64,000 nucleotides of DNA from NCBI GenBank assembly GCA_963681505.1, contig OY811987.1, positions 6,143,245 to 6,207,244 on the forward strand, in the 5' to 3' direction. The translations under genes and the position numbers were made by a program. The notes below the pieces were generated by a model. That model was given only the letters and a program-made list of their open reading frames with translations. It did not search any database and was not told the DNA's origin. Source of the DNA: Eunapius fragilis. Lineage: Eukaryota > Porifera > Demospongiae > Spongillida > Spongillidae. Shown here piece after piece: positions 1,116-57,900 of the stretch. Position 1 is the first letter of the stretch. Each line of letters opens with the position of its first letter.

Positions 1116-4100
1116 GGGAAGTCCCCTTTGTGGGCTCACCTTATGGCCTATGTTGAGACAAAAGGGGAGGTACCTAAAATGACCACACCCAGCCCCCTCG
1201 CTACATCACTCATGGCTCTTAACTCCATCGGAGACAAGAGCTCACCAACTTCATTTTTAAAGAAACGCTTCAATCTTCCTCAGCTCAAGTCACAAATTCA
1301 AGCCGTCCTGCAACCACAGCCTCCTGTGTTGATTGATGACCTTAGGTATGGCCTGGGTACCCTGATTGATAACCTTATGTATGGCCTGGGTACCCTGATT
1401 GATGACCTTAGGTATGGCCTGGGTACCCTGATTGATGACCTTAGGTATGGCCTGGGTACCCTGATTGATGACCTTATGTATGGCCTGGGTACACTGATTG
1501 GTGACCTTAGGTATGGCCTGGGTACCCTGATTGATGACCTTAGGTATGGCCTGGGTACCCTGATTGATGACATTAGGTATGGCCTGGGTACTATGGTTAA
1601 TCCAAGGAGGAGGAGTCTGTTGTGCCCAGCTGTTGCCATGGTAACTTCACTGTCCCTGCCTTTGCCATAGGACTGTAGCCAATATGACCGAATTGAAAAC
1701 TGATGTTGGAAGGGCCCGGGCATTTGTCCGTCTTACCCTTGAGAAGAAATGTCTGTCTAGGTACCTCTCAGAGTTGCTAAGCAACAAAGACCTGATCAGG
1801 TGACAGTAACCAGCTTCATCAGAAGTGTTGATATAGCGTGTTTACACACACACACACACACACACACACACACACACACACACACACAGCCAGCGATATC
1901 GGGAGTATGCCTTCCTTTGCACAGATGAAGAAAGGGAACAGTTTCTGTACCATCTGTTGACACTGACTGCTAGGGACTTCACCTGTTTCACTACTGGCTT
2001 TCTCAACACTAGTAGGCTGCATGCTATGAACCTTCCTTTCCCTCGTCCCTCTTCCCTCCCCCCTCCTCCCCTTCCCTCCCCCCTCCTCTCCTTCCCTCCC
2101 CCTCCTCCCCTTCCCTCCCCCCTCCTCCCCTTCCCTCCCTCTTCCCTTCCCTCCCCCTCTCCCCATCCTCACCCTTATTACTCGTTTCTTCCACTTTCAC
2201 TTTCATTCCTCCAGCAATGGTGTATCGTGTCATTGTGATAGGAGAAGGCAGACATTTTGGGCTAAGTACCTCCACACTGCTGGTGACTGTTGCAGGAGAG
2301 TTCCTGGACAGTGGAAGACATGACATCCCCAAGGGAGAGTTCTCCATTGATATTACGGTACATTCTCTAGTCTGTCTGTGCACAGGTATGTGTATGTGTC
2401 TGCTGCAGGTTTGTGCACATGTACTGAAAGAATTCATTGGTCACAAAAGGAATAAGCTAATAAAACTTAATCAGTCACTGAATTAATTGCATATCAAAAT
2501 AAATAATTGCATATCATAATAAAGCCAACTTAATAATTGTTACTATTTCAGAGAGCCATCAGCATGTGGTACCAATAATTTATGTTCTGAAATTAACCCT
2601 CTAAGAGCCCTGTGTTACTATCGTAGTGATATTCTTTCACCTATAGTCTTCTAGTGAACGATAAGCACTCATTCACTGTTGGTCCCCAGCTGACTCCTCC
2701 CACTGACTCCTCCTTTTGCAGACGCAGAACCTTGGACCCCTCACATGTCTTCGTGTGGGGCATGATGGTGCTGGTCTGGCCCCGGGACTGTTTGTGTATG
2801 CTGTTCTGGTGCATGTAGTCACCACAGGGCAGACATATAGGTGTGTGGCCTTTTATGTGGAGGAGGACCATATGCATAGCTCCTCTCCTCCCTCTCTCCC
2901 TCCCTCCTTCCCTCTCTTCCTCTCTCCCCTCCCTCCCTCCTTCCCTTTCTCCCTCCCTCTCTCCCTCTCCCTCCCTCTCTCTCCCCCTCCCTCCCTCCCT
3001 CTCTCTCCCCCTCCCTCCCTCCCTCTCTCTCCCCCTCCCTCCCTCCCTCTCTCTCCCCCTCCCTCCCTCCCTCTCTCTCCCCCTCCCTCCCTCCCTCTCT
3101 CTCCCCCTCCCTCCCTCCTCTCTCCCTCCCCCTCTCTCTCCCCCTCCCTCCCTCCCTCTCTCTCCCTCCCTCCCTCTCTCCCCCTTCCTCCCTCCTCCCT
3201 CTCTCCCCCCCCCTCCCTTAGGTTTGAGTGTGACTGCTGGCTTGCTAGGAATGAGGGAGATGGAGCAACAGAAAGGCTCCTTCTGGCCCAACCTGTCCCT
3301 CACACAATGAAGAAGGAACACACTGTCAGTACGCTGGGTGAGTGACCAGGTGGGTGTGGGTATATATGAATATGCTGCATGTGTGCAGATGTGGAGAGTG
3401 TACTGCCTTCAAGGGGACGAAAACTTTCAAGGAAGGGAATTACTGAAAGTAAGTTGTAGATGCAAACCTCTGCTGTGTGTGTGATGTCTGGCCTTTGCCT
3501 GTAGAGACACCAGAGGACATACTGGCAACCCTTGGGACAGTTGTAAACAACCTTTGTGAGAATATGAGGTCACGGAACAGAGATGCCCCCTTACATGTAA
3601 GTGTGCCTCTGCCCCCCGCCCCCCCCCCCACACGTATGTGTGCCCCCTGCCCCCCACATGTAAGTGTGCCCCCTGCCCCCCCCACATGTAAGTGTGCCCC
3701 CTGCCCCCCCACATGTAAGTGTGCCCCCTGCCCCCCCCACATGTAAGTGTGCCCCCTGCCCCCCCCACATGTAAGTGTGCCCCCTGCCCCCCCCCACATG
3801 TAAGTGTGCCCCCTGCCCCCCCCCCCACATGTAAGTGTGCCCCCTGCCCCCCCCCCCACATGTAAGTGTGCCCCCTGCCCCCCCCCCCCACATGTAAGTG
3901 TGCCCCCTGCCCCCCCACATGTAAGTGTGCCCCCTGCCCCCCCCCCCCACATATAAGTGTGCCCCCTGCCCCCCCACATGTAAGTGTGCCCTAGTTCCTC
4001 CTCAGTGATGAGTAGTATGTCTCTCACTCAGCGACAAGACCTGCTGTATTTACTCTGTGGAGCAAATGGTTTTTGCAGCTGTATGGAGGAGCTGTTGCTA

Positions 4101-54917: not shown

Positions 54918-57900
54918 ATGCTCAGGAGCCGTCCTGCAAAATCTGCATCCTCGTTTGTGTTACTCAAGGCCCTCATGGTAGGTGTAATACCTCTCTCCAC
55001 CTCCTCCCTCCAACTTCACCACACCTCCACACTACCACTCTGTACTGCTCCCACTAATGTGCATTCCAGCTGCTTAGGATGCATGTACGTGTGTATGTAT
55101 GTATGTAATAGAAGTTTCCGGTTCTTTGGTACAGTAGCCTCAGGACTGGTACAAATTGCTTCCTAGTATTGTCTGTGTTTTGTGACTGTAGTGAAGCATG
55201 CTATGGTCACTGTCGTGACTTACTGGGAAAGAGGGCTATACAGATGCAAAAAGTTTCAAGACATGCTGCCAACCCTTACCTCCACTGTGGAGTGGGTGGG
55301 CACCTATTGGGGATAAAGTGGGTGGGCATCCCATTTAGAAGTTGATGGGCATACTTTGGGGGATGAAGTGTTTATTGAGGCAAGGGGAGCCTGGATAAAC
55401 AAAACGTTTTGTAAGTCAAAGCATTGTTTAGTGCTTAGACACTTTTAAGAACTCTCTGTTTAATTTGCGACATGTGACAAGGTATGGTTGTGTCACAGAA
55501 CACAGTTACCATGTTAGCTTATTGTGTACACTTACGTTGGTGTGTGACCATTGAGGCAGGATCACATGACCACTTATAGTTGCAGCAAGCCTGTGATATG
55601 GGTCATGTGATCAGTCATGTGATGTGTGAAAAGGTTTGGGTTAAATAATGTGCCTGATCGTATTTGAGTGGTGAGATGCCTTACTGGGGCCCTATGACAT
55701 CACTGTGTGTGCATGTCCCCGCCTGGCATAAGTACATGCTAAAATTACCAACACTATTGGAACAGCTCATTTGCAAGAGCATGAAACTATTTATGTGTCA
55801 GGCCCCTCCCCCAGAGGAAGGAGGCCTTCAATAATGAGATGGGGGGGGGGGGGGGGAGGTTGTGTAGCCATGGAAACCTGTATAATAGCTAGTAAAATCA
55901 TGCTATTTTATGGTAGTTTCCTTGGTTACAGGCTATGGGCCTGTGATTACCAGGGCCTTCAAAGAGGGAGGGGGAGGGGAGGGTGATAACCAGAGACCTT
56001 CAAAGTGGGGATGTGTGTGTGTGTGAGGAGGGCGCTAACCAGAAGACCCTCTTCAAAGAGAGGAGAAGGGGGAGGGGGGGGGTGATAACCAGAGAGAATG
56101 GAGGCCTTCAAAGAGGGGTGTGTGTGTGAGGAGGGTGATAACAGAGAATGGAGGCCTTCAAAGAGGGGGTGTGTGTGTGAGGAGGTGATAACTAGAGGCT
56201 ACCCTCAACAAGTCTGATGTGTCTTGCTTTATCAAATTTGTGTCTGTATAATATGTGAACTCCTTCCACACTGGTCATCATGTTATCTTATTGTTAAAGT
56301 TTCCATATATGTACATCAGTTTATTTCCTTCCTACCTCACTCTCACTCCCTCTCCACCCTCACTCACCCCACTCGCCCCTCCTTTTCCTCTTTCTCCCTC
56401 TCTCCCTCCTCCATCTCTTTGCAGCATGTCATATGTTCATGGCAGTGCTCTTGGAAGCATAAGGACCCTACATGTGGCGGCCATATTGGGTAAGGACACT
56501 ACATGTGGCAGCCATATTGGGTAAGGACCCTACATGTGGCAGGCATATTGGGTAAGGACCCTACATGTGGCGGTCATATTGGGTAAGGACCCTACATGTG
56601 GCGGCCATATTGGGTAAGGACCCTACATGTGGCGGCCATATTGGGTAAGGACACTACATGTGGCGGCCATATTGGGTAAGGACCCTACATGTGGCGGCCA
56701 TATTGGGTAAGGACCCTACATGTGGCGGCCATATTGGGTAAGGACACTACATGTGGCGGCCATATTGGGTAAGGACACTACATGTGGCTGCCATATTGGG
56801 TAAGGACACTACATGTGGCAGCCATATTGGGTAAGGACCCTACATGTGGCAGGCATATTGGGTAAGGACCCTACATGTGGCGGCCATATTGGGTAAGGAC
56901 ACTACATGTGGCAGCCATATTGGGTAAGGACCCTACATGTGGCGGCCATATTGGATAAGGACCCTACATGTGGCGGTCATATTGGGTAAGGACCCTACAT
57001 GTGGCGACCATATTGGGTAAGGACCCTACATGTGGCGGCCATATTGGGTAAGGACCCTACATGTGGCGGCCATATTGGGTAAGGACCCTACATGTGGCGG
57101 CCATATTGGGTAAGGACCCTACATGTGGCGGCCATATTGGGTAAGGACCCTACATGTGGCGGCCATATTGGGTAAGGACACTACATGTGGCTGCCATATT
57201 GGGTAAGGACACTACATGTGGCAGCCATATTGGGTAAGGACCCTACATGTGGCAGGCATATTGGGTAAGGACCCTACATGTGGCGGCCATATTGGGTAAG
57301 GACACTACATGTGGCAGCCATATTGGGTAAGGACCCTACATGTGGCGGCCATATTGGATAAGGACCCTACATGTGGCGGTCATATTGGGTAAGGACCCTA
57401 CATGTGGCGACCATATTGGGTAAGGACCCTACATGTGGCGGCCATATTGGGTAAGGACCCTACATGTGGCGGCCATATTGGGTAAGGACCCTACATGTGG
57501 TGGCCATATTGGGTAAGGACCCTACATGTGGTGGCCATATTGGGTAAGGACCCTACATGTGGCGGCCATATTGGGTAAGGACCCTACATGTGGCGGCCAT
57601 ATTGGGTAAGGACCCTACATGTGGCGGCCATATTGGGTAAGGACCCTACATGTGGCGGCCATATTGGGTAAGGACCAGGCTGTGTACTGTGGTTGTGTCA
57701 TGTAACTATACATGTGTATAAAGTTGAGCAGTAATAATGGGATATGTGTACAAACATATGGGGTGGGGGGAGGTCTGATGTATTCAGGGTTACACAAGGT
57801 TTTTCCCTTCACCTTCCCTTCCCTTCTCTTCCCTCCCTTCCCTTCCCTTCCCTTCCCTTCTCTTCCCTCCCTTCTCTTCCCTTCCCTTCCCTTCCCTTCT

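Follow-up and report, generated by a model that had tools for sequence, protein, structure and literature searches.

We show here that introns of the spongillid sponge Eunapius fragilis contain minisatellites that carry the splice donor within their repeat unit. In the window, that is the whole stretch of 64,000 nucleotides that was analysed (contig OY811987.1, positions 6,143,245 to 6,207,244), eight such minisatellites are found in six genes. Their units of 26-35 bp each join an exon end to its GT donor and are present in 3 to 39 copies (Table 1). Probably, these arrays are intronic minisatellites of the type described as mirages in amphioxus; random short tandem duplications in the very short sponge introns would have been tolerated at the donor, mostly purged at the acceptor and then expanded. 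Slippage or unequal exchange, in which short direct repeats may be involved, would generate the duplications along a gene. Many introns are about 50-70 nt long, hence a duplicated segment of 26-35 bp would often straddle the 5' splice site. It would be tolerated there because the exon is not altered if splicing starts at the 5'-most donor, all further copies then falling into the intron. Duplications that cover the acceptor or reach the branch point and the pyrimidine region would mostly be purged, while surviving arrays would expand and homogenise with the donor copies as passengers. This account draws on the donors inside the units, their mostly intact GT, exon ends placed by homology at seven of the eight arrays, units that are unrelated to each other, array counts compared with null placements and the small number of acceptor-spanning arrays; what we infer is that duplication proceeds by slippage, that RNA is spliced from the first donor and that selection filters the arrays.

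Minisatellite units that contain a splice donor

Arrays were located with Tandem Repeats Finder (TRF) and the donor-copying arrays were then decomposed one copy at a time. Gene models come from a purpose-written gene finder trained on the same genome, and the predicted exons were checked against homologues. The donors of TDP1, SYMPK and DLST were misplaced or missed by the main setting of the gene finder and were corrected by hand using homologues. The copy decomposition bears out the initial annotation, in which seven arrays had been described as repeating an exon end plus GT, one of them (DENND5 3595) as likely only, with splice sites copied 3 to about 39 times; the extremes are TDP1 with 3 and DLST with 39 copies. 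An eighth array, at donor 1346 of the DENND5-like gene, was absent from that list. The last bases of the upstream exon lie inside the array in all eight cases (3-30 exonic nt), as had been suggested for checking, and 104 of 111 copies retain an intact donor GT. The array at SOS 29107 is the weakest of the eight cases; its period is variable, and 28 bp was used for copy decomposition and 31 bp for the null comparison. The array at DENND5 3597 is counted as donor-spanning, although its start as called by TRF falls 25 nt inside the intron.

Median donor scores per array range from 2.8 to 6.9, compared with a median of 4.7 over all predicted donors. Conservation of the donor columns (0.92-1.00) is about that of the rest of the unit (0.93-0.99), which is the pattern expected of passengers and speaks against selection for additional donors as much as against rapid donor decay. 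The units are mutually unrelated, with one similar pair among 41 window units, both from the same intron. Thus, a recurrent process rather than a single repeat family is at work, as the initial annotation had it. The duplicated segment of the DLST array, the sole one examined for edge repeats, has the 8 bp TAAGGACC at either edge, a pattern that slippage between short direct repeats would leave.

Support for the exon ends comes from homologous proteins that read across the joins of seven of the eight arrays without a repeat insert. The join at the first donor of SOS is collinear with SOS1 (3ksy), that of KIF6 46440 with a kinesin motor domain (7n61) and that of TDP1, with the exon corrected by hand, with TDP1 (6mj5). 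The DENND5 join at 1346 is collinear with Rab6-interacting protein 1 (3cwz), which we take to be a DENND5A fragment. This support is limited to 1346, the exon end at 3597 being defined by the gene model alone. SYMPK of Ephydatia muelleri (P0001) reads across the join at 16458 without repeat, E. muelleri DLST (P0229) reads TLHTTAILGDEE at the DLST join, and a further KIF6 homologue (P0109) reads EEQKASFKAKY at 48949, both again without repeat. We infer use of the first donor from this protein conservation, and collinear homologues would be consistent with undisturbed normal splicing.

Table 1. Tandem arrays at splice sites in the window. Positions are those of the window; GT gives the copies with an intact donor GT.
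Feature	Position	Strand	Donor	GT	Exonic nt in array	Remark
DENND5-like, 33-bp array	1330..1591	+	1346	8/8	16	exon 1212-1345; frame open throughout
DENND5-like, ~28-bp array	3586..3991	+	3597	13/14	11	
TDP1, 26-bp array	8051..8133	-	8122	3/3	11	
SYMPK, 30-bp array	16062..16475	-	16458	12/14	17	
SOS, 28-31-bp array	29107..29402	+	29111	9/10	3; start at last 3-4	frame open throughout
KIF6, 26-bp array	46430..46551	+	46440	5/5	10	
KIF6, 35-bp array	48941..49554	+	48949	17/18	8	
DLST, 31-bp array	56460..57676	+	56490	37/39	30	
SYMPK, 15-bp array	12086..12329	-	12335			start 6 nt past donor
SYMPK, 36-bp array	12461..12622	-	12638			start 16 nt past donor
SYMPK, 37-bp array	15301..15535	-	15538			start 3 nt past donor; units without intact copy of donor GT
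SYMPK, 27-bp array	17555..17772	-	17780			start 8 nt past donor
Coiled-coil gene, 27-bp array	21019..21539	+	21002			start 17 nt past donor
SOS, 14-bp G-rich arrays	31211-31289 and 31332-31383	+	31209			start 2 nt past donor; join collinear with SOS1
CCCTCC-type pyrimidine array (contrast)	33771..33971	+				end 2 nt upstream of acceptor

Donor clustering and the alternative explanations

The positions of all arrays relative to splice sites were compared with three null placements. In N1 the duplicated unit is placed uniformly across the pre-expansion intron with overhang allowed, in N2 acceptor-spanning units are additionally purged, and in N3 the last 30 nt of the intron are protected as well. 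The 20-nt and 30-nt limits were picked post hoc, after the data had been inspected. The window table holds 31 arrays, curated by hand from an automatic list of 37. Arrays 15230, 31332, 50589, 50814, 51097 and 51767 are omitted or merged on account of doubtful gene models, a too-short unit or being the second half of one array, and because most of them sit far from any donor, the curated table favours the donor side. Including those that span it, 21 of the 31 curated arrays start less than 20 nt from a donor, with 10.4 expected under N1 (P=3.6e-5), 13.3 under N2 (P=0.0017) and 18.1 under N3 (P=0.12). Ten arrays span a donor (expected 5.7, P=0.041; 7.5, P=0.19; 11.7, P=0.83, in the same order), eight with at least 4 exonic nt and two marginally with an overlap of 1-2 nt, and 11 start 0-19 nt inside the intron (4.7, P=0.0033; 6.0, P=0.022; 9.7, P=0.35). 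Without curation, 20 of 37 arrays are found less than 20 nt from a donor where 10.9 are expected, or 17 of 28 where 8.6 are expected, depending on the gene-finder setting. Acceptors are spanned by one of the 31 arrays compared with 5.7 expected (N1, P=0.013), and this sole case (39867) is doubtful and overlaps its own donor too, by 1 nt; six window arrays lie 0-19 nt from an acceptor (4.7 expected). Array-free introns of the window are so short (median 66 nt) that a 30-bp duplication often touches the donor. Hence, donor clustering in the window is real compared with a naive null, and it does not clearly exceed the level that a protected 3' end in short introns would give.

The comparison was extended to 270 kb outside the window, made up of 20 random loci and 7 subtelomeric loci; two of the latter, L034 and L035, are tandem repeat throughout and have zero predicted exons. 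Under N1, 9 of 38 arrays there start less than 20 nt from a donor (6.9 expected), or 9 of 32 (6.7 expected) with the other gene-finder setting, which is no significant excess. The distance of array starts to donors, a measure proposed by the initial annotation, thus gives an excess in the window under uniform placement, and no significant one in these 270 kb. Donor-spanning arrays number 4 of 38 (3.8 expected), none with at least 4 exonic nt, at one setting, and 6 of 32 (3.8 expected), three with at least 4 exonic nt, at the other, where L015 and L032 resemble exons that overrun an array. An acceptor is spanned by 1 of 38 (P=0.088) or 1 of 32 arrays (P=0.083), so the shortage of acceptor-spanning arrays points in the same direction in every set and is significant in the window only. 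Array-free introns at the random loci have a median length of 189 nt, and longer introns fit the weaker donor association outside the window.

Several observations weigh against short introns and purifying selection as the full explanation. The donor-side excess is strong under uniform placement, where donor-spanning arrays are nominally in excess as well. It persists when the purge of acceptor-spanning units alone is allowed for and is gone only when the last 30 nt are protected too, a bound selected after data inspection. A run with a simpler null places 6 of 39 arrays near donors compared with 2.1 expected (P=0.015) where 150 nt or more of the intron are not repeat; the unit sizes, copy numbers and copy filter of that run are unreliable, its array bounds being unaffected. 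Genome-wide, a motif of three spaced strong donors has 153 matches compared with 51 for the reversed motif. Among these, the excess under uniform placement, the longer introns and the donor triplets favour true duplication hot spots, as proposed in the initial annotation. In such a model, a transcription-linked feature of the 5' splice site (U1 binding, pausing or an R-loop on the G-rich non-template strand) would provoke tandem duplication. Strand composition can be read in the same way. G exceeds C on the sense strand in 26 of 31 donor-side arrays compared with 3 of 21 acceptor-side arrays (P=1.7e-7), and in none of the 10 simple acceptor-side arrays, while the remaining arrays are balanced (26 of 53). 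Likewise, among the arrays that start less than 20 nt from a donor, 18 of 28 have units with a donor motif in sense and 3 of 28 in antisense, a sense bias that is absent from the other arrays (13 and 17 of 45). The strand composition also counts in favour of our main reading, as it looks as if local sequence had been amplified within limits set by splicing.

Against hot spots stand the missing significant excess outside the window and the near lack there of donor-spanning arrays with substantial exonic sequence (0 of 38 or 3 of 32). Where the intron measured 200 nt or more before expansion, 3 of 35 arrays span the donor (2.1 expected), 1 of 35 starts 0-19 nt from it (1.4 expected) and 6 lie 0-19 nt from the acceptor, with unit sizes again unreliable; in the run with the simpler null and unreliable unit sizes, introns with 150 nt or more outside the repeat also show an excess near acceptors (8 of 39, P=7e-4). 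The donor triplets are not taken as a sign of broad hot spots, because among the matches listed (about 100 of 153) all come from four loci. Support for donors as duplication hot spots is therefore weak or lacking. The hot-spot model is possible and would need clear donor enrichment in long introns genome-wide, and at present we regard it as unlikely.

A function of the arrays themselves is considerably less probable still. Identical donors might act as decoys or as landing arrays for U1 that tune splicing or yield isoforms targeted to nonsense-mediated decay, and both the high proportion of intact GT and the finding that use of a later donor would reach a stop 15-147 nt beyond the first donor in five of eight arrays would suit such a role. 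However, the donor columns are not consistently better conserved than the remaining unit, and the units differ between introns and have no element in common.

There is slightly less reason to believe that the exon continues through the array to a later donor, so that the repeat is translated. Two arrays, DENND5 1330 with its 33-bp unit and SOS 29107, have an open frame from end to end, the frame of the array at SYMPK 16458 is open over 330 of 397 nt, and some gene-finder settings push the exons of DENND5, SOS and SYMPK into the array. In contrast, homologues lack an insert at the joins of DENND5 1346, SOS and SYMPK, and the remaining five frames hit a stop inside the array. A public gene model, Em0019g587a (P0114; presumably E. 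muelleri, judging from the prefix), has long tandem peptide repeats, GETATDPGGKSPC, that resemble a minisatellite annotated as coding, and annotation of sponge genes may mistake minisatellites for exons in this manner. That the arrays are relics of intron gain through tandem duplication of AGGT exon sequence (the Rogers model) is hardly credible: the join reads AG/GT in four of the eight window arrays (DENND5 1346, SOS, KIF6 46440 and KIF6 48949), but none of the eight includes its working acceptor, 39-524 nt of other intron sequence following the last copy, and therefore the duplication did not create the intron.

Neighbouring arrays, satellites and gene context

Six further arrays, which the initial annotation had reported as beginning near donors, indeed start 2-17 nt past them, in SYMPK, a coiled-coil gene and SOS (Table 1). 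As a contrast, pyrimidine arrays of the CCCTCC or TTCCC type end 2-11 nt before acceptors at 33771-33971, 29827-30159, 57803-58195 and 22536-22636, and these acceptor-side arrays look like amplified polypyrimidine tracts. An interstitial telomere-like repeat of five TTAGGG-type units is found at 42676-42705.

Outside the window, the largest donor array of this analysis is a 28-bp array of about 56 copies (L025:1067-2649) that starts at the predicted end of a weakly supported exon and in which the strong donor CAG/GTGAGT is intact in 52 of 56 copies. Small arrays at most 3 nt from predicted donors at L012:9793-9867, L014:8591-8762 and L024:6493-6554 are further candidates for boundary arrays. 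L030 and L034, near the ends of contigs C4 and C2, are filled with one and the same subtelomeric satellite of about 393 bp (CCACCCATACAT...), and a 66-bp satellite with the palindrome GACTCCTGCAGGAGTC occupies all of L035:1-10000, near the end of C3.

The window itself is located on a 6.31-Mb contig, 106-170 kb away from its end, in a genome of 219 Mb and 24 contigs. Genes identified in it are DENND5-like, TDP1, SYMPK, a coiled-coil gene, SOS, KIF6 and DLST. The best protein matches of SYMPK (80% identity, over a partly wrong gene model) and DLST (71%) are from E. muelleri, and such matches would place the window among freshwater sponges. SYMPK, KIF6 and DLST are near one another here (contig C17 of this genome). 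The source contigs of the E. muelleri SYMPK and DLST records are equal in size (6,029,284) and the KIF6 and DLST models both have the prefix Em0019, so that the local linkage of the three genes looks conserved with E. muelleri.

Amphioxus mirages and the choice among equal donors

The initial annotation considered the phenomenon undescribed. In amphioxus, however, minisatellite-like tandem duplications that span exon-intron boundaries and carry AG/GT splice signals are already described as mirages in two reports (PMC3087553, PMC3902484). The first describes them in Adh3 and the globins BflGb6 and BflGb9, and PGBD5 and TnC were added by the second (PMC3902484). Adh3 data and reverse transcription PCR on the globins suggest that splicing is not disturbed; mirage clusters vary in length, with haplotypes of six and three units in BflGb6, and both 5' and 3' boundaries are affected (PMC3087553). 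The sponge arrays likewise extend across the exon-intron boundary and carry GT signals. They differ in the host, a sponge, in being concentrated in six genes of a single 64-kb window, in lying at the 5' boundary in nearly every case and in reaching 39 copies. Duplication at both boundaries is reported for mirages and does not strictly define them; among the 31 curated arrays of the window, 10 span a donor and a single, doubtful one spans an acceptor. The tandem-duplication model of intron gain (Rogers 1989, cited in PMC3087553) shares with our arrays the duplication across AG/GT, but there the duplication makes a new intron bounded by the unit at both ends.

Ordinary intronic minisatellites have comparable unit sizes and copy numbers, homogeneous copies and G-rich or C-rich strands. 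Unlike these, the sponge units include the splice donor and exon sequence. No account of donor-copying repeats in sponges was found among the titles and abstract openings of the papers that sponge-directed searches of open-licence literature listed, and the term 'tandem repeat' was not found in the main text of the E. muelleri genome paper, as far as that text was available (PMC7385117). New here are the taxon, a spongillid sponge, the number of repeat copies, the local density, with six genes affected in 64 kb, and the all but complete lack of cases at the 3' boundary.

The spliceosome of this sponge may reliably pick the 5'-most of up to 39 near-identical tandem donors (about 56 at L025, with its weakly supported exon), and by virtue of this reliable choice the donor arrays would be neutral. 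We put this forward tentatively, as a conjecture that could well be wrong. For mammals, a preference for the intron-proximal of equal donors is usually quoted; a literature search on how splicing chooses between duplicated donors, PMC5585400 included, yielded nothing of use here. If true, the sponge would offer a natural, replicated case of 'first donor transcribed wins' in an animal whose introns measure about 60 nt, and if the first donor is always used, transcription order would outweigh proximity to the acceptor. Ordinary conserved genes that hold such arrays of identical 5' splice sites provide a ready-made test of donor choice among equals. The asymmetry between donor and acceptor indicates that splicing constraint may shape where repeats grow in short introns. 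Finally, the extension from lancelets, the only group found in the literature searched, to a sponge suggests that such arrays may arise again in any lineage that combines short introns with active minisatellites.

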